64,000 bases of DNA from Owenia fusiformis (taxonomy: Eukaryota; Annelida; Polychaeta; Sabellida; Oweniidae): the NCBI GenBank assembly GCA_903813345.2, contig CAIIXF020000003.1, forward strand, positions 8,993,912-9,057,911. The letters are read 5' to 3'. The translations under genes and the position numbers were made by a program. Under the pieces are notes generated by a model. It was not told the origin of the DNA and did not search any database. It saw nothing but the letters and a program-made list of their open reading frames with translations. Shown in pieces: positions 25,143 to 50,990 of this stretch (positions are counted from its first letter, which is position 1; every line of letters begins with the position of its first letter).

Positions 25143-27592
25143 ATGGCGGGTGAGTAGATTATTTTAACTTTAGAAAAAGTAGCTAAAATATGGAAATATT
25201 TTAACCATGCGATTGCTCAGTCAATTGTATTCAAATACTATAATAATATATAATTCACATTGTCTGTTAATCCCTATTTATGTAACATGTAACATGTTAT
25301 GTAGATACCTAAAACGGTAGCTTTAAAGCATTGGGAGTAAGTCGCCCCTCCATCTCTCTTATATATTAAAGCTATTTTTAGATGATTTTGTTTGCACCCC
25401 GCTTAGCTGTTATAACCAGAAATTAATAAATCAAAGGAAGTAGTGCGCTTTCCATTATGATCTCCCCATGAAAAAATCGTTCATTTGATTTTTTCAAAAT
25501 GAGTATACTGCTTCCATCAAATCATTTATATGCACACTAGTATCTTGTTGACCTATATTGAGCACTTTATTGATGCATGGGCCACTTATTAGGGTCATAA
25601 TTCAATTATGAAGTGTAGAGGCATTGATTCCAAACCAGAAAGTATTTTTGTGTCTGTCAAAATCTATTTGCATCCTACATATCCCTCCATCGTATCCAAA
25701 TATGTTATTAATTAATGAAACATAACAGTATAATCTTTGGATTTACAAAGTTGTATGGCATTTTACAAATGTAAAAGTTGCTTTTGAAGCATTTTTCTCT
25801 TAATTTGAAGTATGACGTAAATCGATTGCAAACTTCATATTTGGACATCTGATGTGATATACCATTTGTGTCATATTGTGAAATTTAATTTGCAATCGAT
25901 TCAGGTCATAGTGAATTTTGGTATTTTTTGTAAAAATCACCCTTGCTGGACTTAATGACCTCAACCCCAGCCCATCTGGTCCCAAATGCTTAAATATTTT
26001 CTAATGTATTATGTGACATTGTATTCTTTATGTTACACCTATAATTATTCATTTTATTGATGGGGAAATCATAATGGAAAGTGCACTAGATCCTTTCAAA
26101 CCTGTTGTTGAATTAGTTCAGGGGATGCAACATGCCAAAACATCATTCGAGAAGCACCTTTCTTTTTTATTCTTTAAATCAAATTAAAATTAAAACTGCA
26201 TGGAAATATCTCAAACACATAGCTGTTATATTTCTTCTCGTATTGCAACTTGAACAAATAAGAGTATTTTCCGTAATTTCGATTACAACCGCTTTCGAAA
26301 AATTAAAAAATGGTCACCGTGTGATTTACACAGAATATCAAATACCGATAATCAGCAGTGCTCTTACATCTTTGAAAATTTTAAGTTGAATCCAATTAAA
26401 AGAATTATCTCAAAATTCAAAATGGCCACTATGCATTTTACTCGGTATGACTAAAATCTAATAAGATAGTGTCATTAGTCCGTTCTCGCAATCTTAAAAA
26501 TTGTGTTGAATGGATAAGCTATTTCCTTGAATTTTAATGACAAGTTTTGTATCGTACCCGCCCATGAGCATAAACGTACGCCCATTAACTGAAAACGAAT
26601 ACAATATTGCACTTTGCAAAGTGCGATAAAACGTTGATATTTATCTCTTTTCAGACAAACCAATTCGAATCATTATAATTGGTAAAACTGGGGTCGGTAA
26701 AAGTGCCACAGCAAACACGCTCATCGGCGATAAGAAACGATTCAACGAAAGAGCTAGTATAACTCCAATAGCCCCTAAATGTGTTTGTGAGACATTGAAT
26801 CATGATTCAAATAGCTATAAGATAATCGACACGCCTGGATTTACGAATTTTAATCAATTGAATTCGGCAGCTGCAAGAGAAATCGCAAAGTCAATGCAGT
26901 ATGGCGCTCCTGGTCCACATGTCTTTCTTTTTGTAATACGGTTTGGTCAATTTACACGGAAAGATCGCGACCTAATAGAATTTATTAAGAAACTATATGG
27001 CGAAAAGAGTACAAAGAATCATGGAGTTGTTGTAGTCACTCATGGCGATGACATTAAACGAAATATAAACAATGAATGTGTTAAAAGCGGGGAGGTCGAT
27101 GCATTTGTGAAAGATTTAGTTGATAGTGACGAGGACGCAAAGGAACTGCTCAAAGCGTGTTCCGATAGAATGTTTGTCATTGACAACAGATCCACAGATC
27201 GATGGACTGAGGCATCTTCACGATTTTATAAAAACATCCAAGAGTGGGGTCTTGGCTTGTCTTACTGTAACGATTTACATGGCGTTGCCAAAATGATGGA
27301 ACAGGAGAGAACAAAAGGAAACCTGGAACCACCGAAACACGTGTTGGGCACTATTCAGAGGGCTCTTCGTCAAGATGAATCGCAGGGAAGTGGAATAGCC
27401 ATGGCGATGGGAATCGTTTTTGTTGGAGTAAGCGCATTTGTTCTCTTACGTGGTCTGTACAATTGGTTTTATGGTAGTATACACTATATACCTACAAGTT
27501 TATCAACAGCATGGTCCCTTGCAAAGTTATGCCGCAACGGATATGACCAGTTGACTTCACACAATACTACACAGAGGCACGATGCTACATAA
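25143..27592 (+). CDS. GIMAP/AIG1-family GTPase with C-terminal membrane anchor
   Basis: Two exons are inferred: 25,143-25,149 (ATGGCGG, donor gtgagt) and 26,655-27,592 (acceptor ctcttttcag). They join in phase 1 to a 314-residue protein starting MADKPIRIIII. AIG1-type GTPases bind GTP, oligomerise on membranes and in vertebrates act in lymphocyte survival. Visible motifs are G1 GKTGVGKS (12-19), G3 DTPG (61-64), the GIMAP-specific conserved box around GPHVFLFV (about 89-96), G4-like THGD (131-134, where paralogues have TRGD) and G5-like NRS (180-182). A hydrophobic segment at about 250-271 could anchor the protein in a membrane, and the tail that follows is not CaaX. The exon-1 sequence and phase match gene 2 at 42,021, which supports the model. 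Family certain, specific function unknown. Confidence 0.9.
25435..26095. mobile_element. Foldback element in the GIMAP gene 1 intron
   Basis: TAGTGCGCTTTCCATTATGA (from about 25,440) is inverted as TCATAATGGAAAGTGCACTA (to about 26,090). A smaller inverted repeat is nested inside, ATCGATTGCAAA at 25,818 against TTTGCAATCGAT at 25,892. The sequence between holds no coding frame. Confidence 0.65.
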
Positions 27593-27611
27593 ATATGCAA
27601 CTAATTGCAGC

Positions 27612-27617
27612 AATAAA
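27612..27617 (+). promoter_or_regulatory. Poly(A) signal, GIMAP gene 1
   Basis: AATAAA occurs 20 bases after the stop codon and is the first such hexamer downstream. This implies a very short 3' untranslated region that ends just before the transposon at 27,670. Confidence 0.5.
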
Positions 27618-27669
27618 AAGACGAATCGATTCTATTTACACTGTTCCACAACTACACAATGCGTGTCTA

Positions 27670-28312
27670 CAGGGTGTCCCGAAAGTATGGGGCCCCCCCT
27701 AGGCAGACATATTCCAGTGTCCTCATAGTATGTGTCATATATCATTTTAAAGCTTATCCAAAGTTACATTGATTTGCCAAGTATCATGGTTTAACTCCCA
27801 AATGGGAAAAAGTTACAGGCATTTCAAAATTTAGTGTTTGGTCAAAATTAAGTTCAATTTTACACCAAATCACTCGTCAATGTGTCCTCCCGGGCCATCT
27901 TAACAGCAGCAATTCTTTTCGGGTCGGATGCATATTGAGTTGGAAAAAGAGAACGGTGAGGGTAGAAACTCTAAGGAAACTCTTCTAAAGTCCCTTAACA
28001 GGTTTTAATAGGGTTATAAAATTCCACACCCCCATTTTAAGGGCTTTTAAGGTCATATCTGAAAATAATTGCTGCTGTTAACATGGCCAAGGGGGGACAT
28101 ATTGACTAGTAATGTGACGTAAAATTGAACTTTATTTTGACAAAACACTTACTTTTAAAATGACTATAACTTTTTCCCATTTGAGAGTTAACCCATGATA
28201 CTTGGCAAATCAATGTAACTTTGGATAAGCTTTAAAATGATATATGACACATACTATGAGGACACTGGAATATGTCTGCCTAGGGGGGGCCCCATACTTT
28301 CGGGACACCCTG
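27670..28312. mobile_element. 643-bp mariner-type foldback element
   Basis: It starts CAGGGTGTCCCGAAAGTATG and ends in the exact inverse, with TA on both sides (27,668-27,669 and 28,313-28,314). Arms extend about 170 bp (27,670-27,838 and 28,143-28,312) and are nearly identical. The centre also pairs partly, for example GGCCATCTTAACAGCAGCAA with TTGCTGCTGTTAACATGGCC. No transposase frame is present. The high arm identity suggests recent activity or arm-to-arm correction. Confidence 0.85.
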
Positions 28313-29465
28313 TATATTAGCCAGAAATCACAAACTTCAAACTCTGTGCATACCATCCTTACTCCATACCTATAATTGGAATCGCGATGACTTATTTAAA
28401 GGGATTCTGGGTGATAGCTATCAGAAAGGACAAACTATTGCTTCTGTGACGAGATCAAACGACGTTGACACGTTCTTCACCCTACTTAATTTGTAATTGA
28501 ACAATCGACACAATACTTGTACATACCATATTTTCGCTGATATCGGACAAATTCATAACCAAATAAAACCAAGATACATATAAACAAATAGCATAATACA
28601 ATATTAGTATCAGCAATTACATTTTTCTTATCAATATTTCAAATCCAAAGGATGGTTCCCCTTTTTATATTTGCTAATAACATAAATGTCCGGGGTACTA
28701 TTGATTGAAACGTAACTTGACTCTATATCCAATACCTCCAAAGTTTCCCAATTTTTTCCTCAATTACAATATGAAGAAGATTGATGATAAATTTGGTGAA
28801 TTAAAACAAATGTTATTCCAATGTAAACCAATTGGAAATGGTGGGTTCAGGGCAAATCAGAAATCCGGATATCTATTCAGTAAAAGATTTAGTAAAAATA
28901 TTTTGATATATAAAATTGAATAGTCTAACTTTTTGTACACTAAGTGTTTAGTTTACTTGATGAATACTAAAGTTACAGAGCTTCAAAGTCATTTTTGAAA
29001 ATAAATTTTCGACACATGTGTTTGACTTTAAATACCTATAACTCATAAACCAACATTTCCCATTGGCTAACAAGGGAATGTAGATTTTCAAAATTCATCA
29101 ATTTTATCATCAATTTTCGACCTATTGTAATTAAGGAAAAACTTGAGAAAATTTGAAGGTATTTGAAATAAAGTCCATCAATAGTATAAGTGTTTTCATC
29201 ATAGGTTAAGTAAATACAAATTCAAAGGTAAAGAGGCTTTAACACGTAATCCAATGCGGAGCTAAAGTTGCCAAACTTATGGAGAGAGGTGTACATTTTC
29301 ACATACATTATCTTCTTTCTTTTTCATCGTATACAGTAGTTTATTTGTTAGGTATATTTTATATATTATCTTATAAAAAAGGACTTAAGTCTTCTGTACT
29401 TGTTAACCTCTTGACTACCCAGAGTGACGAGATTTCTCGTCACCTCAGAAATGACACAAAAATTG
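28313..29465. other. Gene-free AT-rich DNA
   Basis: No gene or bounded repeat recognised. Confidence 0.4.
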
Positions 29466-29469
29466 TTTT

Positions 29470-30150
29470 AAAATGTCTAGGATTGGCACCGAATGTACAT
29501 ATCCTGTACATATCCTGTGTCAGGATTTATACAGGATTGGCGCGTGTAGGAATCCAGTATGAATCCTGAATCTGGATTCATACAGGATACGCTCGCAGTG
29601 TGCCAATCCTGTATGAATCCTGATGCCTGGATACATACAGGATTGGCACACAATGTACATATCCTGTACATATCCTGTGTCAGGATTTATGCAGGATTGG
29701 CGCGTGTAGGAATCCTGTATGAATCCTGAATCTGGATTCATACAGGATACGCTCGCAGTGTGCCAATCCTGTATGAATCCTGATGCCTGGATACATACAG
29801 GATTGGCACACAATGTACATATCCTGTACGTATCCTGTGTCAGGATTTATACAGGATTTGCGAATGTAGGAATCCAGTATAAATCCTGCTCCTGGATTCA
29901 TACAGGATACGCTCGCAGTGTGCCAATCCTGTATGAATCCTGATGCCTGGATACATACATGATTGGCACACAATGTACATATCCTATACGTATCCACGCG
30001 TCAGGATTTATACAGGATTGGAGCAGGTAGAAGTCCAGTATGAATCCTCCCTCCTGGATTCATACAGGATACGCTCGCAGTGTGCCAATCCTGTATGAAT
30101 CCTGACGCCTGGATACATACAGGATTGACACACTGTGTGCATATCCCGGA
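29470..30150. repeat. Palindromic minisatellite, 160-bp period, 4 copies
   Basis: The phrase AATGTACATATCCTGTA recurs near 29,491, 29,651, 29,811 and 29,971, a period of 160 bp. Each unit alternates the module AATCCTGTATGAATCCTG with its inverse, so the array is a chain of potential hairpins. Open frames exist on both strands through the array and read repetitive peptides; they are artefacts of the repeat. A related array lies at 38,214-38,945. Confidence 0.9.
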
Positions 30151-30730
30151 TTACTTATCCTGCACATAATTTACAAATTATTGATTGCTATTGTTACTAA
30201 CATTTATTACAAAATTCTTTAAACAAGAAAATGCAGCAAACTCCTCGAGTCGAGGTCTCCAAGTCCAAAAAATTCCTGACCCTATCATGTATCTGTTGAT
30301 TATCCTGTTTATAACCAATTCAAGAGCGTGGCACTGAGCGAACCTATATGCCTATTTATTATTATTTGTTTAGTTGTTGGTTGGGTAACATGTTTATGAC
30401 GTCACAAATGATGCGAAGAATCTTTAAACCAATTAGTGAAGTCTATATTAATTGTTTTAGTTGTTGATGTGGCAATACGTGTCTGTGACGTCACGGGTGA
30501 TTGCATCATATTTTAGAAACGCCATTTTACGACATTGCATAATTTTAGCTGATTTTGTCCATTTCACTTTATTTGAAAGACTTCTAAAAATATAATAATG
30601 AGTCAGTATTTTTTCTTATAAATATCTATATTTGAAATTGAGGTCAAAGTCCGAAGATTTGATCAACTGATTGAAATCTCATTTTAAAGAGGTGAAGAAG
30701 TGAATAATTACAGGAGCAAACGTGATCAAT
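30151..30730. other. Gene-free DNA
   Basis: Nothing recognised apart from a loose duplication of TGTGACGTCAC-like and GTTTAGTTGTTG-like phrases around 30,365-30,500. Confidence 0.35.
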
Positions 30731-30732
30731 GG

Positions 30733-30800
30733 TTCGAGGTCTCCCGCAAAGTAGTCGCTACGCTCCTACTTTGCGCTGCCTTCGGCAGAGGAGACCTCGA
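30733..30800. repeat. Compact three-way-junction palindrome
   Basis: An outer stem, TTCGAGGTCTCC with GGAGACCTCGAA, encloses two perfect inner hairpins side by side. One is CGCAAAGTAG with CTACTTTGCG around an 11-base loop; the other is CTGCC-TTC-GGCAG. Single-stranded DNA or RNA of this segment could fold into a cruciform-like three-way junction. No gene is attached. Confidence 0.75.
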
Positions 30801-31653
30801 AAAAATCCATGTCAAGATAAAAAAACAATATTTCAATTTTTTCAATCAAACAAATAATATACTTTCAAAAGTACCTGTACTAGTATCCAAAAGTGAATTT
30901 CATTAAATTAAGAATGAACATTTTGCCATTATTCACAATTATTTTTTCCCTGGACTATTGTGATTTGATATTTGATGCTTAAGAAGCTATTAAGAAGACA
31001 AATGGTATACAAATAGCATATATGACATACTTTTAAAGAGCCTAATGTCTGCAACCTTTTTATAACAGACTTTCAATTAAAAGCCCATTATACCACACAG
31101 TCGCAATGGTGGAGGGATTTGGATATTTGGAATTCCCCCGGCAATTTATTATTACTTATCTGTTTTCAATATTGTTGGTATTTTGTAACCCTTTAATATT
31201 CAATTAGCGCTCCAAAAAGTATTGTTTTCAAAAGGTGTAGGTCAAAAGGGTCAAATCGAGGTCAACATGACATTTTGTGATAAATTGTTAATGTGCGAAA
31301 GTACGAAATACGTAGTACAGGTATCAATGTTCTACGAATCTAGATTTTATATCACTTGAAACAATGCATAGCCCTTGGTGAGAGGGGGGGGATTACAGAC
31401 ATCTAACATAGCGTTTTAGTTATGTATAATCATTAATCAAAACAAATAATACCAATTAGTCCATCTTTCTGATTACATTTTGTCCATGTATTTCTGGACT
31501 TATTTACTTATGATTTAGCCAATATGATACAACAACAAATTAACTTCACTTGCGTCAGCCCTTCATCTCCATGTAATTGTATTCATGTTCGATGGGGAAT
31601 AAGAATTTGTTTACCCGGCACCCCTGATCATTATCAAGCGCCTTCTAGATATC

Positions 31654-31862
31654 AGGCCCGTCACAGGCACATATCCAGGGGGTTCGATCTACCCCCCCCC
31701 TCCCCCGGCAAAAAATCTTTCAAAAGCATGTGGTTTTCACCATTCTGAACACTTTTTAAGTGATTTCGGCCATTTTTATACCAAATTTGGCACAAGTAAA
31801 CCCCCCTTGGAATTTTTCAAGAAGTGAACCTCACATGGCAAATCCTAGCTACGGGCCTGCGT
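31654..31862. mobile_element. MITE with CAGGCCCGT ends
   Basis: CAGGCCCGTCAC at the left and the inverse of CAGGCCCGTAGCTAGGAT at the right bound about 209 bp. A poly-C run and a complementary-like CCCCCC run lie inside. A further end-like copy, CAGGCCCGTATCCAGC, lies at 52,398. hAT-type MITEs have ends of this kind, but an 8-bp target duplication is not evident here. Confidence 0.5.
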
Positions 31863-34284
31863 CATACTGCATGGCTAAAACTCCGGGCTTTCGCTAGAGA
31901 GGCGTGCCTCAGAATACCCATGACCCGGAGGTTAACTTAAAAGTAACGCAAGGTAGATAAAACTGTATTTAGTCAAAATAATGTACATGTACAGTATATG
32001 GTATCCAAACCCCTAAACTGCACGGCTTCTCGCCAGGCATTTTGTCATCGCTCTACCACTCCGTCGCCACCATAATTTCTCACGATTTGAACTGTCATAT
32101 GATATTATAATATTGAGTTTATTATTTTGCAATTATTGATGAAGCTTTATCGGGGATAGAGAATTCCTTATACATGGTTATCGTTTACTCTGGAGTTCAG
32201 ATGATAAAAGAGGCAACAGATGAACTCTCTTGCTAAAACCATTGAAAGGATAATTGCTATTGTTATAATTAATAATTATAATTAATAATACTATTATTAT
32301 TAAATTCAAATTCACTAATGATGATTGATAATTTAGCTACAAGCCATGAGTGTGTGTATTTTGGCTGAAATAGAGGCGGGGGGATAGTCTAGAGGCAAGA
32401 TTTTTTGATTCCATATACCGTACTTGTTTTCAGGCATCATACTATTTCCATGAGTGAGTGTCAGATTTTAAGACCCGTTTTCCTTCTTTTCCTTCCCATG
32501 CGAATTTCAAATACAATTTGCAAATGCATCCTAAAATCTGATTATGTTAATGCTCATCCCCCCTCCTCCCATACTCGTTTCCCAGTTTGATTTTGTCGTC
32601 GACTGGTGCCTAGATGCATTTGCAGACGCAACGCACATTTCAGGGCGCACATTTCATGTCATTTATGAAAAAATTGAATTGAAAGGCATCACATGGAGTG
32701 GAGGGGGGGGGGTGAGTTATCATGATCAGAGTTGGGCCTAATACTTGTATAATTGTAATAAGATATGTCTGAAAACAAATATATAATATATATTGTATAT
32801 GTTATGATATCAAAGCAAATTGGATTATTTATACATGTCGTCTAGTTCGGATGTTATTTTAACAAATACAGCAACCAGACGGCGTATTCGCAATGTAACT
32901 TATCAGTTCTCAGATTTGTAAAGCCATGGGAAAATGAAATCTGAAATAAAGATGCTTTTCTAGCATCTTGACTCAGTGTAAATTATATTTTGAAAATCGT
33001 TTTGACTCATATACTTTAAGTGTACATACTAAATGGCGACAATGACATACATATGCATCACGCGAGGATGGATGATGACCATGTACTTTACATCTGCACG
33101 TTGTCAATATCTATATCGCCGGTTGATGTCTCATGTTCCCAAAATAATTATAGTAATAATGTTCAAAAACAGAATATGATATGTATTGTTGTCTTGCATC
33201 ACTATATGAGTAATAATTTGATTAGAAACCCGGGATTAGAAAAACTCTCCGAATCTGAATCATATATTTGAAATCGAAGAATACAATGCCCCGGGTACAA
33301 TGCCCCGTGTATTTACCATTTACTCTCAATCCTGATTACTATCAATGTCTCCAGTGAGTTTGCTTCTGTGTGCCTCTCCAAGTAACAAATCTAAATGCAT
33401 ATTCTACACATATCGCCCAATGTGGGCCCGGGACTTGAAAAACAGACGAAGACCTCGTGTGCAAGGGGGGGGGGGCTATAATGTAGCAACTTTTGGTTTT
33501 GTCAAATAGCTGAAATAGTTTGTCACAAATATTAATTAAATACGCAAATAGAGGCAGGTTTAAGAAATGAGACTAGAGGCAAAGAATAATTATAATCATA
33601 AAATCTAAAGTAATTCCTCGATGATCTCTTCTGTAATCAAGGCGGTAGTACACTTCCGCAGTTATAAAAACAAAGACATAGACTAAGTAATTAATCTTTT
33701 GTTATCATTTAATATTAGTTACTTACAGCATTAATTTGTCTTGGATTTCCGAGGTATGATGTTTTGATTGAAAATCAAACTGGGAAACGAGTATGCTCCT
33801 TACAGCTGTGTATATCAAATCCTGTGAAAAGAATCAATTCAAACTCACCCCCCCCCCCATCTAGTGTCTCTTAATTACAATTATTTCGCAAATGAAACAA
33901 CCCAAAAACGTTGATATGTCAACATAATTTTGCAGAACTGAGCGAAACGAAAGGTGGAATGCACAAAAGGCAACAGTTGAAGTTTTATTTTCCCAATAGA
34001 CTAGATGCAAAGAAATACATGTGATCTTGATTTACATCCAAAATCCAAAATTGAGATCATATTTCATATTCTTATTTACATTAATACTTTCATGTAGTGT
34101 CAAATATTTAAACCCTGGGCTTTTAAACATTTTGCATATTCGTCATCAAATCTGATCATATATGTACCCCCCCCATCTGCAATCATGATAGAAATCTGAC
34201 TTCCGGTCTCAAAACTGAAAAATAAAATTATCGATACCCTTACCAATTGACCAACCAACTGAACCACCCCCCGGGGAACCACCT
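31863..34284. other. Gene-free DNA with poly-G/poly-C runs
   Basis: No gene recognised. Homopolymer G or C runs of eight to eleven bases occur near 32,703, 33,467, 33,847 and 34,167, and an AATTATTA-rich microsatellite lies near 32,262-32,302. Confidence 0.45.
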
Positions 34285-34805
34285 ACCCATCGATTGACTA
34301 ATCAAACAGACTACAAAACATCCAAGCAACCAACTTTCAAAGGAAGCGACCAACTTTGCAATCACCAGTCAACAGAACGCAAGAAACTGACCAAGCAAAA
34401 ACAAAGCAAGCAACCAATTAATTGTGCAACCATATAAGCAACAAACAAAGCGAGGAACCAAGCAAGCAGCTAATTAAGTAACTATATATGCAAATACACG
34501 TAAGCAAGCAAATGAACAACAAAAAATCCAAGCAATCATGCAGAAACCAAACAAGCAAGCAACTAAACAAGCTTCCAAGTAATCAATCAACTAGCCCAGC
34601 AACGAACCACACAAGTAATCAACAAAGCAAGCAAGCAAGCAAACGACCATCCAAGCAGAAAACTAAGTAAGCAAACAACAAACCATGCAACTAATCAACA
34701 AAGCCACCGACCAATTAAGGAAGCAAGCTACTCATCAAGCAGAAAACAAAGCATTCGACAAACCAAGCAACCAAACAACAAAGCAACCAACCAAGCAACT
34801 AATTG
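34285..34805 (+). repeat. Degenerate AAGCAACC/AAGC microsatellite
   Basis: About 520 bp of purine-biased, loosely tetranucleotide sequence built from AAGC, AACC and AACA. It creates Lys/Gln/Asn/Ser-rich open frames (for example 34,488-34,670) that are compositional, not genes. Confidence 0.75.
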
Positions 34806-34975
34806 ATCCGGTCTCGTTTGCTGTTTATGTCTTGCAAATAATGCCCCTCTGCTGCTACAGTTTGTCAATGATATCAACTGCACACATTTGATTGATTTAA
34901 TGCAACTTCCAAGTTCCAAATGAAGCACGAAGGTTGACATTTGAGAACATAACTGATACCAAAAGGATGCGTGAA

Positions 34976-35105
34976 GCAGTGGCGTAGCCAGGATTTGGTG
35001 ACCAGGGGTTCTATTTTTATGTTATTCACAAATCCCCCACCCCTTCATTAGGGTTCCTCAAATAATGTAGAATTACACCCCCTCCAAAAGTTTGGCAATC
35101 CTAAC
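34976..35105 (+). mobile_element. End of a hAT-like MITE
   Basis: CAGTGGCGTAGCCAGGATTT resembles a terminus common to many hAT-type MITEs of animals. The matching opposite terminus was not placed. CTGCCTACGGCTATGG at about 36,970-36,985, beside a GGGGGTTCG/CGAACCCCC hairpin, may be the end of a related element. Confidence 0.4.
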
Positions 35106-35559
35106 TAACCCATTGGATTATGTATTAAAAGCATCTTTAAGTTTGATTTCTTATTTATTTTTATATTTTTAGAAAGAACTATTTTTGCAGGGGAAATATA
35201 ATTCATTTTAATACCTTCATTAAGTTAAGTAGATAATTGAATTTGAATTTTTTTAACAAAAACGATTCCTTTATTTACGTTAGCAAAGTCTGAAAGTAAT
35301 AGGCTTCATCAAGAAACCTCTCCCATTGAAATAACACTGGACGAAATTGATTTTCAAAAATGACCTTGTAGCTTTGTAGCTTTAATGTTCACAAAGTAAA
35401 ATAAACAGGCAACGTGCAAAAAAGTCAAACAACTTATAATTAATTTTCTGCATCAAAATATATTTAGGTGAATCTTTTACTGAATACATATCCTGAAATC
35501 TGATTTACCCCGAATCCACCATTATTTCGTCTGATTTCTGGAAGACTCTGGAGCATGAT

Positions 35560-38210: not shown

Positions 38211-38213
38211 TCA

Positions 38214-38945
38214 GACTTATACAAATCCTGACTCAGAGTACGTAAAGGATTGGTACACTGTGTGCATATCATGTGTATCCTGGCGTCAGGATGCATACAT
38301 GATTCGCGCACAGCGAGCCTATCCTGTGTGAATCTTGACTCAGGATACGTACAGGATTAGCACACTGTGCATATCCTGTATGAATCTAGGCTTCAGGATT
38401 CATACAGGATTGGCACACTGCGAGCGTATCCTGTATGAATCCAGGAGGCAGGATTCATACTGGATTCCTACACGCGCCAATCCTGTATAAATCCTGATAC
38501 AGGATATGTTCAGGATATGCACACAGTGTGCCAATCCTGTATGTATCCATCTGTCAGGATTCATACAGTATTCGCTCACAGCGAGCATATCCTGTATGAA
38601 TCTTGACTCAGGATACGTACAGGATTGGCACACTGCGTGCATATCCTGTATGAATCCAGGCGCCAGGATTCATACAGGATTGGCACACTGCGAGCGTATC
38701 CTGTATGAATCTTGACTCAGGATACGTACAGGATTGGCACACTGCGTGCATATCCTGCATGAATCCAGGCGTCAGGATTCATACAGGATTGGCACACTGC
38801 GAGCGTATCCTGTATGAATCTTGACTCAGGATACGTACAGGATTGGCACACCGTGTGCCAATCCTGTATGTATCCAGGCATCAGGATTCATACAGGTTTG
38901 GCACACTGGGTGCATATCCTGTATGAATCCTGATGACAGGATTCA
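38214..38945. repeat. Second palindromic minisatellite, ~109-bp period
   Basis: The array uses the same ATCCTGTATGAATC module and its inverse as the 29.5-kb array. Here the unit is about 109 bp (CGAGCGTATC recurs at 38,691 and 38,800), with alternating GCACACTGCGAGCG and GCACACTGCGTGC joints. The 5' part is more diverged than the 3' part. Open frames inside are artefacts. Confidence 0.9.
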
Positions 38946-38999
38946 TTGTATTCATACGCATTTTTTGCTGTGATAAAATGAGTTCATTTTGTACCTTTA

Positions 39000-39972: not shown

Positions 39973-40797
39973 AAACGCAATCCAAAGAAATATATATGGA
40001 AAATACTAATCAAATTATGTTCATATTCTCAGGAAAGAAAGAAGAAAGTGTGTATGTATAGCCCCTGTTGTTAGTTAGTTGTAAAACATGATGTATTGGA
40101 CACTTGCTCAAAAGAGAGTTGTACTAGCAAAATACAAAAAAGCGAATGGAAAATCACTATATCTTGGAAAATACTAATTCAATTATGTTCATTTTTTCAG
40201 GAAAAGAAAGAAGAGACTGTGTATGTATAGCTCCTGTTGTCAGTAAGTTGTAAAACATGATGCCTTGGACACCTGCTCAAAAGATAGTTGTACTAGAAAA
40301 ATACGAAAACGCAGTCAGAGGTGCCACAGCAATAAAACCGAATAACTTTCCAACAATTGTGTTTTGGCACTTCAAATTTAGCACGAATTATCCTCATTCA
40401 ATGTGTGGTGAATTTGTGGAGTTTCATTAAAATCACTCAAGGGACTTTACAGTCATGGTCAAAATGCCTTCTTAAGTCTGCCCGGACCAGGGCGTTTGAC
40501 TGAAATTTGAAAGCATTTTAACCATGACAGTGAAGTCCCTGAAGTGATTTTGATTTCACTCTACAGATTTACCATATAGTGAATGAAGATTTTGCGGTTG
40601 GAGTCATCTGCGTTTTTTCTATTCTCCTAATACAACTGTATTTTGAGCAGGTGTCCAAGGCATCATGTTTTACAACTAACCATTTGCAAGAGCTATACAT
40701 ACACAGTCTCTTCTTTTTTCCTGAAAATATGAACATAATTGAACCAGTAATTTTCAAGATATAGCGATTTCTTTGGGTTGCATTTTTGAACACCCTG
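39973..40797. mobile_element. Complex foldback with tandemly repeated left arm
   Basis: A 150-bp unit containing ATTATGTTCAT, AGAAAGAAG, GTGTATGTATAGC and AAAACATGATG occurs directly repeated at 40,003-40,150 and 40,169-40,322, and inverted at 40,607-40,770. The inner arms TAAAATCACTCAAGGGACTT and its approximate inverse pair at 40,433-40,553. The right end CACCCTG resembles a mariner-type terminus. No transposase was read. Confidence 0.65.
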
Positions 40798-42020
40798 GAG
40801 TTACCCTGCAGTCCGACAGCCAATAATTGAATTTAGTCAGAATAATTATCAGAAAAGTCACTGAATATCATAATAGCAAGATATTTCCTGCGGTCCATTC
40901 TGTAGAAGTGCTCTAGAAATGCAACCTTACTGTCATGGAAGGTCACACATTCCAACATATTTCAAACAATCTGTATGCTTATGCTGGACACTTTCTGGGA
41001 AGTTCGGAAGAAATCCCCGGGGGTACTTTAATACCACCCAATAAAAAGAATACTAATACATATCAGATATTCATTTTTATAGTGGGTAGGGCATGCCATG
41101 GTTAGTCAGTGCAAAAAATTCCAATCTCTGACCTATATGATTACCATGGAAACAGTATCATATCTCACAATCTACTCATTTTGACCCCTCCCGAATGTGT
41201 CCTTTAGTTCTCAATTTGAAATATTTGCAAATCTGTTTGGATTTTATGGCTGCTACTTTGTCAAAAGTTTTATTTATATGTATGAATTCACACTAAATCA
41301 ATAAAAAGTTGACAATGATCCCATAAATGAATTGTATTTATCAAATATAGTCACACACAACTACCTTTAGGGGAAGTGGGCGTGGGACTTTTGGTCCTTG
41401 TGAATTTGTTGTGGCATTAAATGAAAAATACATGTTACACTAACAACAAATGACATTTGATTATCATTTACTAGCATTGTGTAACATTGTAATATGTTAA
41501 CTATCATGATAAAACACTTTAAATATTTTATATGAGTGTTATCAAGACCCTTCCTATCATAGGTCACCAATTGTCAAATTAACTATAAGTCTAAGTCTTA
41601 GAGGTCCGTAGTTTGTCGAAGTCTTATTCATTGACCTGTTCCTAGAATATGAATGGTTCCATTGATCAAGATCTATGAGTCAAACGTAATTAAACGTTTG
41701 TTATGTTACAATATTTAGAACCATTTCATGCAGTTGGAAAGTAATGAATCGTTCCATCCTTAGAGTATGATGTTATCTCATGCATGTGTGAATTGCATAC
41801 CATACTCTAGTAACAATTATGACTTGGATTAAGTTATATGAACTCATTTATCATAAAACAACCCTTCGCTAGTATCTCTCATATAAACTTTAAATCAAAT
41901 TCATATTTATGGCCTTAATCAAGGTGGGAGTGGATACAAACAGAGAGCAATAAAAGTTTGTAACAGAGCAAGGGCACTGGTCAGTATCAAGCAAAGGTCA
42001 CTGCTGTTACCTTCACATCT

Positions 42021-45000
42021 ATGATGGCGGACGGTAATTGTCAATTTTAAATTTACATTCAATTAAACTACTTTATAGTTGACGTTATGCTTTGATATCT
42101 GAACCAAATCAATTTATATGATATTGGAACTATGGAGAATGATAATTTGTGAATGTCTAGCAATCATATATTTAAACAAATGTTTCATTCTATGTTCGGG
42201 CAATACCTGTTACACTTTCAATGATTTATGCAACATGTATTACCCTCGCCCTACGGGCTACGTATTTTTTACCAAATTGAGACACTTCCCTGGAGAGTTG
42301 CAAATCTCTCTATAAGAATAGCCTAGCTCCAACATCTCTTGATGACTTTGCTCCCATATTTCTTGTGAGGCTGTGGAACAGTTCTCGTGTTCTTCACAAT
42401 ATTCCATTCCACTGTAAGTCTATGAATAAGGCCAATTCTTATCACTGGCTTCCCTAGGTCATTTGGATGCCTTGCAATTTCTAAATCAGCAACAAATAAT
42501 GGGATAAATAATAAAAAAAATTGCGAGTGATGAGATTTGCTATTTAACTTTGAAATCTTGCTGAAGTAAAGTTTTACTATATATATTTCACAGGCAAAAT
42601 TCTCATTGGGATAATGTTAAAGAGTCTTAAACATTGACTTATTCTTTCAGTGGTATTTTTTCAAGTTCATACACAATCTAAACATCATCAAACACAATCT
42701 GATTATCATCAAGTTTCAAACACAATCTGAACATTATCAAATTTAAATTTAAGCGACTTGTGTCAATGGTAAATCCTAGTATCTAGCCCAACTAGCAAAA
42801 GTGCTGCCATCTACCTACTAGTATCAATCCATCTATCCATATACATAGCACCTCATGAGGTCAGTACTGTAAGTAAAGCTTTTGCCTCATGTCTGTGGTA
42901 TTTTTGACACCATTGGTGATGCCCACCTTGTAGGGTATATGGATAAAAGGAAAGGTCATGATAACAATAACATAAAATATCTTAAGTATCTAATAATGAT
43001 AATGGACATATTACAATGTCACACAGTGTTAGTAGATGATAATTTAATGTCAATTGTGGTTAGTGTAATATGTATTTTTCATTTGATGCTGCAACAATTA
43101 CACAAGTACCAAAAGTGCCACGCCCACTTTCCCAAAAAGTAGTTGTGTGTGACTATAATTGATAAATATTATTGATTTATAGGAGCATTATATCAACTTT
43201 ATAGTGCTTTTGAGAACCAAGGGACATATTTGGGAGGGAGTCAAATTGATAAGATTTTGAGATGTCTGTGGTATTTTTGACACCATTGGTGATGCCCACC
43301 TTGTAGGGTATATGGATAAAAGGAAAGGTCATGATAACAATAACATAAAATATCTTAAGTATCTAATAATGATAATGGACATATTACAATGTCACACAGT
43401 GTTAGTAGATGATAATTTAATGTCAATTGTGGTTAGTGTAATATGTATTTTTCATTTGATGCTGCAACAATTACACAAGTACCAAAAGTGCCACGCCCAC
43501 TTTCCCAAAAAGTAGTTGTGTGTGACTATAATTGATAAATATTATTGATTTATAGGAGCATTATATCAACTTTTTAGTGCTTTTGAGAACCAAGGGACAT
43601 ATTTGGGAGGGAGTCAAATTGATAAGATTTTGAGATCTAAATACTGTTTCCATGATAACCATATAAGCTAGAGATTGGAAATTTCTGACACTGACTAACC
43701 ATGGCATGCCTTACCTACAATAAAACTATTTATTTATGACATGCATTAGTATTCTTTTTATTGGGTGGTATTAGAGTAACCCGAAGGTTTTCTTTGGGTA
43801 GGGGTATAAATTTGACTGAGAGCCGTCTGCCACCCCTACATGAAGTCCAAATAACCAGAAAGTGTCCAGCATAATCATAAAGATTGTTTAAAATACGTTG
43901 GAATGTGTGACCTTCCATGACAGGAAGGTGTTACAATTATCAGAGTTGACCATTGTCTAATATACAGTATGACTATAGTCCATAAAATAAGCACGAGACA
44001 ATTACTTTTTAGATGACGCGAAGAGGATAATGTTAGTTGGCAAGGCCGGTGTGGGAAAAAGTTCAACAGGCAATACTCTTCTTGGGAAACGAGAAGGAGG
44101 GGGAGGAACGTTTACTGCATCATCAAGTTTAACATCAGTGACCAAAAGGAGTAAATCTTTTGAATGTACTAATGCCTCAACCCGATATAAAATCATCGAC
44201 ACTCCTGGATTAACCAATATTGATGGCAATGAAAACGAAATAGTCAATGAAATTGCATTATCATTGCAATACGCAGATCCCGGTCCACACGTATTCATTA
44301 TTGTGGCTGAATACGGCCGGGTGACAGAAGAAGACTTTCGTGTCTATGAGAAAATCCGGGACCTATTTGGGGAAAAGTTTTTGCAAAAATATGGAATTCT
44401 CTTGTTTACTCGCGGCGACGATATAAAACACGACTTAGAAGCGACACTGGATGATGAAATAAATGATGAAATCCTTGTTGTGGAGTTCAAAAAGAAAATT
44501 GTTGAGGAAAGCGAGACTCTACCAGAGCTCGGGAAACTATGTGAACTGTGTTCGAACAGAATTTTCATAATCGATAACAGGTCCCAAAATCGGAATTACG
44601 AGGCTTCGCGCTTTTACAAAGCGTTGGGTGATTGGGACCTTGGTATCGATTACTGTACGGACAGTCACAACCTTGCAATAATGATGGCAGAAGATAGAAA
44701 GATTCGGGATGCAAAGCTTGATGCAGACTTGGATAAAGAGTTAAAGAAAAGTAAACAACAACTTGAAAAGAAAACGAAGGAAAGAGGAAACAAAAAGGAT
44801 GAAGAATTATCCTTCGCGGACAAACAACATAGAGACAAGAAACAAGCTATCATGAACTCATATGAAAAGGCTATAGCCGACTTGAAAACAAATCACACAA
44901 AGGAAGTTGAAAAACTCAAACATGAAAATAAGAAGGAAAAACAAAAACCAGTTAAACCATCCTCTCATGTATTAGAAAAAATTGGGATTGCACTGGGAAT

Positions 45001-45208
45001 AAGTACTGCAATAGTAGGTTCAATTGTTGGTGGAATGGCTGCAGCACCCGTTGGTGCAGCTGTTTCTGCTGCTGCCGCTGGTTTTGCTGCAACAGAAGGT
45101 ATAGCGGGCGCTGCTGGAGTTGTTGCTGCTGGGGCTACAGCTGCATCCGCAAGTGCTAGTTCATTTACTCTAGGAGGGTGGATACGCGATTATTGTAATA
45201 TCTTATAG
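42021..45208 (+). CDS. GIMAP/AIG1-family GTPase with coiled coil and CaaX-like tail
   Basis: Exon 1 is 42,021-42,033 (ATGATGGCGGACG, donor gtaatt) and exon 2 is 44,013-45,208 (acceptor cttttttag). They join in phase 1, as in gene 1, giving about 402 residues. The AIG1 domain shows G1 GKAGVGKS (14-21), G3 DTPG (67-70), the conserved box GPHVFIIV, G4 TRGD (137-140) and G5-like NRS (193-195). It is followed by a charged coiled coil (about 232-318), then a Gly/Ala-rich hydrophobic stretch (about 327-393) and the terminal tetrapeptide CNIL. A C-terminal Cys-a-a-Leu suggests geranylgeranylation, and with the hydrophobic stretch suggests membrane attachment; this is inference. Its closest relative is at 49,843. 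The 1,979-bp intron is filled with repeats. Confidence 0.9.
42173..42290. mobile_element. Diverged foldback of the GCCC-NNN-GGGC family
   Basis: ACAAATGTTTCATTCTATGT followed by CGGGCAATACCTGTTACACT and the turn CGCCCTACGGGCT resembles the elements at 5,554 and 24,131. It lies within the intron of GIMAP gene 2. Confidence 0.45.
42889..43636 (+). repeat. 373-bp tandem duplication, nearly identical copies
   Basis: GTCTGTGGTATTTTTGACAC starts at 42,891 and again at 43,264. The two units appear to differ at only about one base (CTTTATAGTG against CTTTTTAGTG). The duplication lies inside arm B of the surrounding inverted repeat and in the GIMAP gene 2 intron, and must be recent. The shared 67-codon open frame is probably not a gene. 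Confidence 0.85.
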
Positions 45209-45366
45209 TCATATGATAATATTTATTGATTTAATCTTAGGGTACCTTGTACTAGCGGAAGTTTCGCGTTTAAGTGCCAAACGTCTCAAAATCCTTATTT
45301 ACCAAGTAATTACTATTGCCTGATGACAACGTGTTTCATCTGGAGTGAACAGATGTATAATTTTAT

Positions 45367-45372
45367 AATAAA
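45367..45372 (+). promoter_or_regulatory. Candidate poly(A) signal, GIMAP gene 2
   Basis: AATAAA occurs about 160 bases after the stop codon and is the first canonical hexamer downstream. Confidence 0.4.
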
Positions 45373-45604
45373 AAGATAATTAGTTGGCCATAAATGCTTT
45401 TTGCACGGAATTCCACCTATATCCCTAGGGGCAGCCACGTGAAAAATCAGGCAAGACGATTGCTTACTTCGAAAAAAGTACCCCCTTGGTGACTCTATTT
45501 AAGTTTTAATACTAAGTCCATGTATCCAGTCTCACGTACAATATCTAGAGGTTGGTTGTCATAAAGAAAGGCGCCAAAACCTTTATTTTGCTATTACACG
45601 TTTA

Positions 45605-45926
45605 CACAGGGAGATATGCCGATTACTCAATTAGTACTCAATAAGCACTCTGGCAAAATCGCACTCATTAGCATTCATATCACGAGGACAAATTTAGTAA
45701 TAATTTTGTGCTTACTGACTACTCGGCATATACATGAGTGCTCATTGAGTAATGAAAAATCAATGAAATTAGCGCTATGTTTACACTCATAATATGAGTA
45801 CTCATTTAGAACTTAAAATGCAATTAATCAGTAGTGATGTCATAAGTGCTCTTTTACTGAATTTAGTACTCAATTAAAGCTAGAATGTCATAGGTATTAT
45901 TTTAGTACTCGGCGCATATTCCTGTG
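45605..45926. mobile_element. 322-bp MITE with TA target duplication
   Basis: The left end CACAGGGAGATATGCCGATT and the right-end inverse CACAGGAATATGCGCCGAGT form imperfect terminal inverted repeats. TA flanks both ends. ACTCAATTAGTACTC-like phrases recur inside in both orientations. No coding frame. Confidence 0.6.
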
Positions 45927-46050
45927 TATAATATTATGGTGTGAGTACCGTAATCAAACACGAAATTCGAATATTCTGAACAATATTTTGCCCATATGGC
46001 ATTTGTGACCAACGTTTAAAACGCTTACCCCTCATAGTTTCTCATTTCCT

Positions 46051-47278
46051 CATACACGCCTAACCATCGACAAGGTACAGTGACAAAATATACCGTAGTA
46101 CACTTGAGATGTACGATGTCACTATTTAACCGATTTGAAGCAAAGACAATGATGCAGGTGTGATGTAGGTTTTAAAAAATATATATTTGGAATACTCTAA
46201 ATATGTCATGTTTAGATTAATTGTCATGTGGAGATTAATTAATATTCAAGTATTTATTGTAATTTAAAAAAAATCAGAAATGTGCGTTGCCAATTCGAAT
46301 GTACGTTGTCCCTGTAATTGAAATTCATGAGATATCGTAATATTAAACAATGTAATGATTTCATTTCAAAATTCATTAAGGTTTTTATGAGTAACAAATG
46401 ATCTTTAACGAACATGTTCAAGTATCCTTTTTGTTTTTTTTTCATTTAATTTGTGCCCATTTGGTGTTAGCTTCCAGCCCAAACTCCCATCAAGTGTCTC
46501 GGAATAGAATAAGTTGAATACTAGCAGTGCCACGGAGTCTCCTTCTAGCCTGTTTGATTATTTGGTGCCTGTACCTTACGTTTTGTAAGTTACATCGATA
46601 GATAGATTTACTGATCTATACTAGCTTATTGAATATGACATTTTAAAATCCTGTTTATGCTATATCTGGAAAGTTTCAATAGTTCAATCAAATTGAAGTA
46701 ATTCTGTAATTGTTCTGTTCCAATTTTACATGTATCTGATCCCCCTGTCTGTTAGTGTTATGAAAAATGTGTTGACTGTATTAGCGTTTACTGTGAATTG
46801 AGTAAGTTCAATGGAACAACGTACATTCGAGTTGACAACATACACTTATGATTTTTTAAATTATAGCCAAAATGTTAATACTTATCAAATCTTCAACAGA
46901 CCTTAATTGTGCTGTTTAAAGAAACATATTCTCATAAAAATCCTCGACACTTTTAGACGACAGGGGAGGAAATAATCAAAGGAAATGTGTAAAAAAACAC
47001 AACATTTTCCAACCGACCAATTATATGGGTAGATTGGCTACGAAAAGATCGAGCACTGTTTGAAAATGTTTTAACGTTATTAGAAAGTTAAATGTCTTCC
47101 TAAACGAATACACAAAAATCAAAAATGAAATCCTAAATGCATTCCTCAGATTATTTTTTAAAACCTACATCAAACCTACATCATAGTCATTGCTTCAAAT
47201 CGGTTAAAGCGACATCGTACATCATAAGTATACTACTGTATATTTTGTCACTGTACCTTGTCGATGGTTAGGCGTGTC
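46051..47278. mobile_element. 1.2-kb foldback with nested arms
   Basis: The outer arms 46,051-46,185 and 47,150-47,278 share CGCCTAACCATCGACAAGGT, ACAGTGACAAAATATAC and CGATTTGAAGCAA in inverse order. A second pair (46,264-46,310 and 46,812-46,862) shares AACGTACATTCGA and AAAAAATCA. The loop holds no gene. Confidence 0.75.
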
Positions 47279-47690
47279 ATGGGTCTACATTTTAAACCTT
47301 ATGTATCTTTAAACTGTATTTTCTAAGCCCGAAACGAAAGAAAAACTGATAATGTAAATTAATTTGTACCTTGACTCTATTATCTTGTTTTAAGTTTTTA
47401 CACATGATATGTATATTAGTCAACACATGTCACAATAGCATAATTAAAGCATTACTGTGTATTTATATGAATCATTGACAGTGTAAGGTAAATTATAAAA
47501 TTGGATTTTAAAATACAGGATCGAGATTACACGATTTTGACCCCTGTGAATGATAGTCGAAATACATGTAACATTTCCACAGACTTACATGTTGAGTTCA
47601 ATGGAATAATATGTCATATGCATTTTTACTCAATATGATTGAAACAACTATGTTTGTTTCTTTTTTCGCTATTGTAATATTTTTTTTTAT

Positions 47691-48438
47691 AAATGTCAAA
47701 CAATGACGTTCACAGTAGCTTTCCCAAAAGGTGAATAGCTTTGCTAATTCTGATCCGATTTTGAATCTGCTGTGTCTTGAATGTTGCCTATATCTTACAC
47801 TCATCAAATTAAGGTAAAACCTATGCACACATTCTGTCATATGGTTCGAAGTTCTAATAGATATGTTGCTAAACTCGGATATTCTGAATAAAAATAGATT
47901 GATGACGTCACAATTTATGCAAATTAGCTAATTTGCATAATTAAACATTCTTAACGAACATAAAAATTGATGAGGTTTAATTTGATACCAATATCATTTC
48001 TATAGACCAAATAATGACAAAGTTACAAACATTTTAAACTTCGATGGTAAGATGTCTGAATAAAATTGTCAAATAATGACATTCACAGTAGCTGCCGAAA
48101 AGTTTAATAACTTTGGTAATACTAATCCAATTTTGAATCTGTTTTCACTTTTATGTTGCTTATACCTTCTTCTTATACTCCAAAGGACCAAACTTTGCAG
48201 AAATTCTGACATACAGCCTCAGTTCTAATAGATATGTTGCTATACTCGAAACTTCTGAAATAAAAAGTAATTGATGACGTTACAATTTATTCAAATTATC
48301 TAATTTGTATAATTGAATATACTTACTTTATGGGAAATTCAATTAGGTTTAATTTGATACCAATATCAAATTCTATAGACCAAATAATTTACATTATAAG
48401 TTACAAATGATTTAAGATTCCAAGGTAAGATGTCTATA
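47691..48438 (+). repeat. Diverged two-copy tandem repeat, 373-bp period
   Basis: TGTCAAACAATGACGTTCAC at 47,694 corresponds to TGTCAAATAATGACATTCAC at 48,067. Further shared phrases are TTCTAATAGATATGTTGCTA and GGTTTAATTTGATACCAATA. The first copy holds a CRE-like TGACGTCA and an inverted pair of octamers, ATGCAAAT and ATTTGCAT (47,917-47,938), which have decayed in the second. The two copies are clearly older than the duplication at 42,889. Confidence 0.75.
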
Positions 48439-49842
48439 GGTGCTTAACCATGGTAACGGAATGCTACAATACAGAGCAACCAATGAGAGTTTGCAAGGGC
48501 ATCCGGCAGAAAATTGAGCCCCAAAGTGTTACCTTTCAAAAAAGTATGGATGCCATAAATTAACAGAGACCGATACGTTGGGCAAATGTTTTGAAACGAA
48601 GAGAGGCATAGGTCTCTGACTATTTAATATTTATAGGTACATTACTAGTGGAAAATGAAAGATTCCATAGTAGTATTTGCTCTTATTCCATGCTATGATG
48701 GTAAAATTCCCTGCAATCATATTGGTCCATTTGACTTAAATATATCCTGTATTTACACTTCGCACTTTCAAATAAACGTTGGATACAGAGTGAAAATGAC
48801 GTCAGTGTTAGGATACGGTCCAGTATCCCGACGCAGTCTAAAGGCAGTCTAAATGTGTTAGCTTGTAGAAAATGACATTATCAATTTTGATATTTGATTA
48901 TGAATCCATCGATTTCCTTAAAATCGTGTGTTTTAAGTTGATGACATTTGTTACATACATGAAGAGGTCATGTTGTATCGGTGGATATACAGTATATGAG
49001 TGTACGTTTGTTTATTCGAATAATGATTAAGACTTGACTTGCATTATATATGAAATAAAAGCCTCTAGTTATTGAAATGAAATAAACTGTTTTTAATAAA
49101 ATGGCGGCTTTTGAGTGCATTGCCTATTGTCCTCGACGAGGATACTATTCGCGTTCTCAACTCCCGTAACTGTTTCGTAGTGGATACAAGACTAATTTTA
49201 AACTTCGTGTATCATCGGTATATTATTGTAGGTTAACGAGCCTGGAAAAAATCGAATATAGTATGAATCCATATTATGACTTTCATAGACGTTTAAAAAG
49301 AGGAGGAAAACTCAAAAACTCAAAAATGAACATTTTAAACTAGTCTATAGCTGAGTTCATAATTTGTCTCTGATATAATACGCACTCCACAACAGTATGT
49401 TGTCTGAACCCTAAGAACTACAAACGTTTTAACTGTACGGATGAGAAAGTATGCACGACTTTTGTAAAATGTCCAGTTAAAAAGTTATTTTAATTGGAAC
49501 ACCCGATATACAATACTGTACAATACAATACAATACAATACAATACAATACAATACTGAAAACGTACTCATATGGACATTTAAAAAATGTTTCTTAAATT
49601 CCGAAATAAGCCGAATCATACCTTGCCACATATCGGTATGATTATGTAGGTGAAAAATCCCAGAATAATTCAGACAGTCCTTTTGTTCTGTCAAAACATT
49701 TTCCCAATTTTCACCACAATGGCAACACCCTTTATTATTTTAGTGCAACTATAAATCCTGTACTTAAACATTATTTTCAAACGGTAAAGGGGAAAATAAA
49801 TTGAAATAAAATTGGACTAAGCACGACACGATTATTTTTTAG
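48439..49842. other. Region upstream of GIMAP copy 3, no first exon found
   Basis: No exon equivalent to the gene 1 or gene 2 first exon (ATGGCGGA plus a phase-1 donor) is visible. ATGGCGG at 49,101 runs on without a donor in the required phase. A (CAATA)n microsatellite of about nine repeats lies at 49,508-49,556. Confidence 0.5.
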
Positions 49843-50990
49843 ATGACGCGACGAGAATTATGTTAGTTGGCAAAGCCGGTGTGGGAAAAAGTTCAACAGG
49901 CAATACTCTTCTTGGGAAACAAGATAAAGAGGAAAGGACGTTTAATGCGTTGTCTAGTTTAAGGGCCGCAACCAAGAAGAGCGTTTCTCTTGAATGTACA
50001 AATAACTCGACTCGATACAAAATCATCGATACCATTGGATTGAATAATATCGAGGGTGACGAAAAAGAGATTATCAATGACATTGCAATATCATTGCAAT
50101 ATGCAGATCCCGGTCCACATGTATTCCTTATTGTGGTTCAATATGGCCGTGTTCAACAGGAAGATTATCATGTGTATTTGAACATTCAGAAACTATTTGG
50201 GGAAGATTTTCTGCACGAGTTTGGCATTCTCTTGTTTACTCGTGGCGACGATATAAAACACGATTTAGGAGCTCAACCGGATGATGATTTTGATGATGGA
50301 TCCCTTGATAAGGAGTTCAAAAAAAGAATCGATGAAGAAAGCAAAGCTCTACCAAACCTCGATGCACTACTTAAACTATGTTCTAATAGAATTTTCATTA
50401 TCGATAACCGGTCCCCAAATCGGAAAAACGAGGCTTCACGCTTTTATAAAGCGTTGAAGAAATGGGCCCTTGGTATAAATTACTGTACAGACAGTCATAA
50501 CCTTGCAATAATGATGGCAAAAGATAGAAAGATTCGGGATGCAAAGCTTGATGCAGACTTGGAAAAAGAGTTAAAGAAAAATAAACAACAACTTGAAAAG
50601 AAAACGAAGGAAAGAGGAAAGAAAAAGGATGAAGAAATGAAAAAGTTACTCACGCCAACATCAAACCCCGACTCCAATGTGACAAATCAGCATATCGAAA
50701 AGAAAAAGGCTATCATGCGCTCATATAAAAATGATATTGAAGATTATGAGAATAAATATAATGATGCAGTTAAAGAACTTAAAAGTCGTTATGAAGAGGA
50801 AAAACGCAAACCAATAGAACCATCGTCTAATGTATCGCATACAATAGCAAAAGCGATAGGAACTGGTGCAGTGGGAGGAATAGCTGGTGGATTCTTTGGA
50901 GGACCGTTTGGTGCAGCAGCAGGAGCTGCAGGAGGTATTGGTTCATTTGCTGCAGGAAAGAAGTTAAAGGATTCTTGTAATATTATGTAG
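49843..50990 (+). CDS. GIMAP/AIG1-family GTPase, CaaX-like tail, altered G3 (first exon not found)
   Basis: The main exon starts after acceptor gattattttttag at 49,843 and stops at 50,990. It aligns over its length with gene 2, including about 25 bases of upstream intron, so the pair arose by genomic duplication. If the first in-frame ATG (49,860) were used, the protein would have 376 residues beginning just before G1 GKAGVGKS (4-11). G3 reads DTIG (57-60) where DTPG is usual; G4 TRGD (127-130), the box GPHVFLIV and G5-like NRS remain. A coiled coil, a Gly-rich hydrophobic tail with a GG-x-x-GG pattern, and the terminal CNIM follow. CaaX ending in Met would suit farnesylation (inference). The long open frame argues for a functional gene or a very young pseudogene. 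Confidence 0.8.

Follow-up and report, generated by a model that had tools for sequence, protein, structure and literature searches.

How are neighbouring GTPases with the same kind of G domain held on membranes when their C-terminal ends differ? The question is raised by a window of 64,000 nucleotides from the annelid Owenia fusiformis (C3:8993912-9057911, in a genome of 498 Mb and 525 contigs), which contains three AIG1/GIMAP frames, W1, W2 and W3, on its + strand. The original prediction for this DNA gave W1 a hydrophobic anchor and assigned the terminal tetrapeptides of W2 (CNIL) and W3 (CNIM) to different lipids. Both tetrapeptides were found directly before a stop codon, as claimed. The same type of end recurs in three further GIMAP genes, and the sequences give good support for a conserved CaaX box in this set. 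W2 and W3 are likely to be GIMAP-type GTPases whose last four residues form a working CaaX box. A lipid probably anchors some of these proteins in membranes, and a hydrophobic segment probably does the same for a neighbour.

A terminal cysteine box in five GIMAP genes

One genome was compared. A profile search of it with PF04548 (AIG1) gave at least 35 places, all above the Pfam cut-off of 27 bits. The frame was read at each of the 35 places; 24 hold clear GIMAPs, with E values of 8.2e-28 or lower, and the other 11 are weak matches (E at least 6.6e-10; 27.8-46.3 bits) in which the G-domain text differs. L-numbers denote loci outside the window.

Among the 24 clear GIMAPs, five frames terminate in the pattern C-[NK]-I-[LM], namely W2 (CNIL), W3, L019 and L002 (CNIM) and L020 (CKIM); none of the 11 weaker matches does. 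Another GIMAP, L017, also has a Cys at position -4 and ends CCVD, which was not counted as a CaaX box. Stop-ended frames of at least four residues were counted on both strands of the window and of L001-L034 (n = 15,111, or 19,885 with L035-L045). In either count, six frames have this end: the five GIMAPs and one frame of five residues. The broader pattern C-x-[ILVM]-[MLSQACFIT] ends 110 of the 15,111 frames. At a rate of 0.5%, the binomial probability of five or more such ends among 24 is 1.2e-7, a figure that is too small because the GIMAP genes share descent.

The fixed distance of the Cys to the stop, behind a tail that varies, is stronger evidence than the binomial figure. The Cys at -4 is the sole Cys of the last 60 residues in all five boxed GIMAPs, and it lies 258-418 residues from the G1 motif. 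Neither Cys(-4) nor Ile(-2) varies across W2, W3, L019 and L020, and among the 56 ungapped four-column windows that follow the G domain in these four proteins, the terminal one alone reaches its score. W2 and W3 are identical at three of the last four residues. The terminal conservation is confined to the box. A chance terminal Cys was rejected on the recurrence among the GIMAPs, the count of frame ends, the geometry of the Cys and the conservation of the terminal window.

The genes themselves look constrained. By the Nei-Gojobori method, the ratio of nonsynonymous to synonymous divergence (dN/dS) is 0.44 between W2 and W3 (dS 0.52, dN 0.23) and 0.39 between W2 and L019 (dS 0.89). Between W2 and W3, the G domain has a ratio of 0.33, the coil 0.60 and the Gly/Ala-rich part 0.64. 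The G1 motif GxxxxGKS is present in W1, W2 and W3. The G3 motif reads DTPG in W1, W2 and L019, DTIG in W3 and ETPG in L020; the last two forms may affect GTP hydrolysis. The nearest sequence matches of W2 in the PDB are GIMAP4, 1, 2, 7 and 5.

Tails of the three genes in the window

The features are collected in Table 1. Hydropathy is given as the maximum 19-residue Kyte-Doolittle mean. Hydropathy and alignment place a C-terminal extension with a coil, a hydrophobic anchor or both behind the G domain, and the helices of W2 also appear in a low-confidence AlphaFold2 model.

Table 1. Features of the three GIMAP genes, in positions of the window
Feature	Positions	Strand	Basis and remarks
W1 exon 1 (predicted)	25143..25149	+	sequence reading; ATGGCGG, then donor GTGAGTAG
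W1 open frame	26630-27592	+	frame reading; PF04548 118.1 bits
W1 GIMAP coding exon	26655..27592	+	PF04548; hydrophobic C-terminal segment, ends HDAT, no Cys box
W1 hydrophobic segment	27380..27472	+	SQGSGIAMAMGIVFVGVSAFVLLRGLYNWFY; Kyte-Doolittle maximum 2.43
W2 open frame of GIMAP exon	43991..45208	+	PF04548 117.8 bits; coding presumably from acceptor ~44013
W2 charged helical (coiled-coil-like) segment	44690..44948	+	sequence; AlphaFold2 helices 219-257 and 264-310 (mean pLDDT 51)
W2 Gly/Ala-rich hydrophobic stretch	44969..45157	+	Kyte-Doolittle maximum 1.89; longer than in W3
W2 CaaX box CNIL and stop	45194..45208	+	sequence; TGT AAT ATC TTA TAG; end reads WIRDY-CNIL-stop
W3 open frame of GIMAP exon	49821..50990	+	PF04548 103.2 bits; coding presumably from acceptor ~49843
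W3 charged helical (coiled-coil-like) segment	50520..50809	+	alignment to W2
W3 short Gly/Ala-rich stretch	50859..50957	+	~33 residues; maximum 1.22; no 19-residue window of at least 1.3
W3 CaaX box CNIM and stop	50976..50990	+	sequence; TGT AAT ATT ATG TAG; end reads KLKDS-CNIM-stop

The first exon of W1 is one of three short candidates from a scan and the sole candidate that reads M-A. It is in frame with the acceptor at 26653-26654, and the joined protein starts M-A-D-K-P-I-R-I. The hydrophobic segment covers residues ~245-275, which bears out the single anchor originally placed at ~250-271, and a Cys at -4 is absent. A donor-like GGAGTAAGC lies 162 nt upstream of the stop. A relic of a box was sought by eye, and C-x-[ILVM]-x-stop occurs in none of the three frames of 27301-27800; no frame with such an ending was found in the 2,411 nt scanned downstream of W1. 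The tails of W1 and of W2 and W3 are not unrelated, a possibility ruled out by the linker (E/K)P-x-x-x-V that precedes the hydrophobic part in all three. W1 has this linker but neither the coil nor the Cys box.

W2 and W3 begin behind similar acceptors (TTACTTTTTAG and TTATTTTTTAG, respectively). A scan for first exons of up to six codons gave two overlapping weak candidates in the 10 kb upstream of W2 and no candidate in the 4.6 kb upstream of W3. Since both genes begin behind acceptors and their first exons were not found, 43991 and 49821 are frame starts and not gene starts. The distances from stop to AATAAA, 20 nt in W1, 159 nt in W2 and 138 nt in W3, fit terminal exons.

The AlphaFold2 model of W2, made from a three-row alignment, has long helices after the G domain. 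Its predicted local distance difference test score (pLDDT) averages 51 and is below 50 over residues 309-398; therefore, a hairpin in the Gly/Ala-rich stretch is neither supported nor refuted by the model. In W3, this stretch is short and weakly hydrophobic, and a hairpin is doubtful. The original prediction that a coil and a Gly/Ala-rich hairpin replace the anchor thus stood for the charged segment and the Gly/Ala-rich stretch of both genes; it did not hold for the linker, which is shared with W1, or for the weak stretch of W3.

Several repeats lie around the three genes. A foldback element at 27668-28314, ~75 bp past the W1 stop, has arms of 224 nt that are 93% complementary and 199 nt apart, with ends TACAGGGTGTCCCGAAAGT; it looks like a non-autonomous DNA transposon. 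Two arrays ~8 kb apart (29479-30146 and 38246-38946) have a similar unit text (AGGATTGGCACAC...CATATCCTGTA...) with periods of 160 and 55/109, and the former is rich in inverted repeats. Just 5' of W2, the stretch 42889-43636 consists of two 373-bp copies in head-to-tail order with 99% matches, from either a recent tandem duplication or a doubling in the assembly. An inverted repeat of 70 nt (93% complementary, arms 1084 nt apart) at 46054-47277, between W2 and W3, is probably another inserted element.

History of the box, choice of lipid and rival explanations

A tree was built from the 24 GIMAP G domains. W2, W3 and L019 form a clade (support 100/97), and L020 is paired with W1 (99/96). Both groups belong to a clade of ten genes (100/100), nine of which lie on C3, with the tenth on the small contig C511. 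L002 is placed outside this clade on a long branch of uncertain position. The original prediction had named conservation of the terminal Cys in related species as a check. The Cys is indeed kept at -4 in paralogues within one clade (five of the 24 GIMAPs carry the box), but close relatives lack the box, as W1 does beside L020. Both one gain with losses (in W1, L012, L014-L016 and L018) and several gains would fit the sequences. A scan for relic boxes behind L012, L014, L015, L016 and L018 (367-794 nt each) gave one match, KCKIL-stop, in a five-residue frame ~230 nt past the GIMAP stop of L014. It lies in another frame, within A+T-rich sequence that has no clear acceptor. We counted it as chance; L014 belongs to the ten-gene clade, so it may be a relic of a lost box. 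The last residue is Met in four of the five boxes and Leu in W2 alone; therefore, the Leu is most simply regarded as derived.

L015 (C3:10237k) and L016 (on C511, a contig of 51 kb) are very similar GIMAPs of 490-495 aa with long coils, either a recent duplicate or an unplaced allele. Eleven long open GTPase frames of 468-1002 aa (L035-L045, on C2, C3, C4, C6, C8, C9 and C317), with text like TIIDTPGFGDT, form a second multi-copy G-domain family with a weak PF04548 match, and several of them end in a basic tail.

Sequences for the prenylation pathway are present in the host at the level of exon matches. A PF00432 profile matches ten exons at three loci (C10, C8 and C6). A C10 exon matches the beta subunit of geranylgeranyltransferase I (GGTase-I; PDB match, E 2.2e-28), a C8 exon matches the beta subunit of farnesyltransferase (FTase; PDB match, E 3.3e-19), and the C6 locus is taken, by elimination, for the beta subunit of Rab geranylgeranyltransferase. 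ICMT has one match (E 1.0e-17) with one internal stop, reflecting an intron or a broken copy, and a Rce1-like sequence is matched weakly (E 2.6e-4). Such exons are expected of a eukaryote and would indicate just the existence of the pathway.

We consider it likely that both W2 and W3 are prenylated. The Cys would be prenylated, the aaX residues removed and the new end methylated. Attachment of the GTPase to the membrane would be shared between the lipid and the Gly/Ala-rich stretch, joined in W3, L019 and L020 by basic residues close by, and on the membrane the coil and the G domain could assemble much as in prenylated guanylate-binding proteins (GBPs). W1, a member of the same ten-gene clade, would depend on its more hydrophobic segment instead of a box.

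CNIL is probably geranylgeranylated, and CNIM is probably farnesylated, with geranylgeranylation also possible. The residue X is described as the main difference between the substrates in PMC1175975, where GGTase-I mainly prefers Leu and Met, and FTase takes many residues including some Leu. An account in PMC11304957 states that GGTase-I accepts Leu and sometimes Phe, Ile, Met or Val. According to results reported in PMC11152559, human FTase gave full modification of Met-ending boxes, which were still partly modified in its absence; with human GGTase-I in yeast, modification was ~50% for CSIM, CAIM and CLIM and complete or almost complete for CIIM and CVIM. GBP-2 ends in CNIL and is treated as geranylgeranylated in PMC2998424. 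An arrangement in which W3 is mainly farnesylated with a geranylgeranyl fallback and W2 is mainly geranylgeranylated has, in our judgement, an even chance. It was originally supposed that Leu and Met would send the two proteins to different membranes by different lipids. The membrane tails do differ and X is the main determinant; on the other hand, the enzymes overlap on CxIM boxes, and the compartment of GBP-1 and GBP-2 is, as stated in PMC2998424, not fixed by prenylation signals alone. Moreover, since the residues before the Cys differ, sorting of the two proteins might have a source other than the lipid. The 11 residues that precede it include one basic residue in W2, three in W3, three in L019, four in L020 and two in L002, and these may matter as much as the type of lipid.

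Alternatively, W2 and W3 may receive the same lipid or the same mixture, the exchange of Leu and Met being neutral and without functional effect. We give this appreciable weight, though short of an even chance. The action of human GGTase-I on CxIM boxes and of FTase on Leu boxes (PMC11152559, PMC1175975) would allow it, as would the single occurrence of Leu among the five boxes; furthermore, PMC11152559 and PMC11304957 mention neither CNIM nor CNIL in their main texts, so their results do not extend to these exact boxes. This alternative is opposed by the role of X as the main determinant, with Leu serving GGTase-I in PMC11304957 and PMC1175975. The last codons, TTA in W2 and ATG in W3, differ at two bases, which says little.

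It is improbable that the Cys is palmitoylated or idle and the hydrophobic stretch alone anchors these proteins. W1 would be anchored in this manner, the stretch of W2 is long and hydrophobic, and the box-free GIMAPs L009, L010 and L013 have hydrophobic ends (1.84, 1.93 and 1.75). However, palmitoylation has no need for a Cys at -4, an Ile at -2 or a final Leu or Met, and all five genes have these residues. The tails of W3 (1.22) and L002 (1.46) are weakly hydrophobic and yet boxed.

Some observations weigh against a working, conserved box. In the full alignment, 16 of the 253 four-column windows match or exceed the last one in conservation, and W2 and W3 are identical at only four of their last eight residues. 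The distribution of the box on the tree needs at least three changes. As few are needed in 21 of 500 label shuffles; therefore, the clustering is modest. A single clade for the box was ruled out by the approximately unbiased test, both for the five genes (p 2.9e-6) and for the four on C3 (p 0.0046). A small, flexible and hydrophilic linker of ~11 residues precedes the Cys in the prenylation substrates described in PMC1175975, and the SFTLGGWIRDY of W2 is more hydrophobic than this. The DTIG of W3 in place of DTPG departs from the usual G3 motif. When GBP-2 lost its CNIL, it was lost from the membrane fraction, but its microscopic distribution was still like that of the wild type (PMC2998424). 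Gene structure also has to be considered, since frames were taken one at a time and C-termini located in further exons would escape. Donor-like sites precede the stops of L020 (AAAGTAAGG, by 24 nt) and L002 (by 179 nt), and the 400 nt that follow the stops of L019 and L002 contain neither AATAAA nor ATTAAA.

The last of these points, together with the first exons of W2 and W3 that escaped the scan and the KCKIL-stop text, which illustrates that such an ending can arise by chance, would favour a gene-model artefact or a chance end, with the last codons missing from the mature proteins. We regard this as very improbable. The final 240 nt of W2, W3 and L019 are free of GT[AG]AG donors, AATAAA lies within 160 nt 3' of the stops of W1, W2, W3 and L020, and the same box ends five genes with the binomial probability given above, in which shared descent is ignored.

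Relation to known GTPases and meaning for the family

The vertebrate GIMAPs (GIMAP1, 2, 4, 5 and 7) resemble these proteins in the AIG1 G domain and in C-terminal anchors that differ among paralogues. GIMAP1, 2, 3 and 5 have predicted transmembrane segments, and no member of the mammalian family as described in PMC3804274 has known prenylation or palmitoylation motifs; in contrast, a CaaX box ends five of 24 GIMAPs here. The AIG family of the snail Biomphalaria glabrata is similarly expanded, with coiled coils, one to three transmembrane segments and tandem arrays (PMC7053062), but the words 'caax', 'prenyl' and 'lipid' are absent from the main text of that survey. The words 'caax', 'prenyl' and 'farnesyl' are also absent from a GIMAP review (PMC8201404). 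The passages on GIMAP/AIG1 in a lancelet pangenome study (PMC12373286) mention CARD and HINT architectures. Among plants, the AIG1/IAN GTPases are far relatives that share the AIG1 domain, and Arabidopsis AIG1 (IAN8) is listed as prenylated in a review (PMC6866125). An Arabidopsis CaaX paper (PMC3017772) does not mention AIG1, and 'prenyl' is absent from the main text of a 2026 survey of plant AIG1 (PMC12845241). An Entamoeba AIG1 with a CaaX box was also considered and rejected, as the literature matches concerned a CAAX protease and 'prenyl' is absent from PMC5884625. A scan of viral contigs gave 210 pattern matches and no relative.

GBPs offer a parallel in design. They are likewise GTPases of immunity, with CaaX boxes that direct different paralogues to different prenyl transferases (human GBP-1 CTIS, GBP-2 CNIL and GBP-5 CVLL), the tail of GBP-2 being the same as that of W2; membrane recruitment that depends on dimers is described as a GBP feature in PMC2998424. 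No Pfam match to the GBP family was found in W1-W3 at E up to 1; Dynamin_N alone appeared, below the cut-off. The likeness of W2 and W3 to GBPs would thus be an analogy only.

A CaaX box in animal GIMAPs seems unreported among the literature matches listed, which were judged mostly by their entries. The lipid-anchor class would be new within a known family, and its mechanism is known. A broader scheme, which we regard as rather unlikely, is that the anchor is the evolving part of these proteins. An ancestor with a CaaX box ending in Met would have given rise to members with a Leu-ending box and a C20 lipid, to others with a transmembrane segment and to others without an anchor. Neighbouring immune GTPases with a common G domain would then occupy different membranes and could recruit one another, as a prenylated scaffold of GBP type that arose anew on the AIG1 domain.

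Membrane targeting of GIMAPs has been described mainly for mammalian members anchored by transmembrane segments. If the reading of W2 and W3 as prenylated GTPases is true, the conserved CaaX box in a GIMAP clade outside mammals would extend the family by a class with lipid anchors. Prenyltransferase inhibitors could then be used to test where GIMAPs localise, and the prenylated GBPs would have a counterpart.

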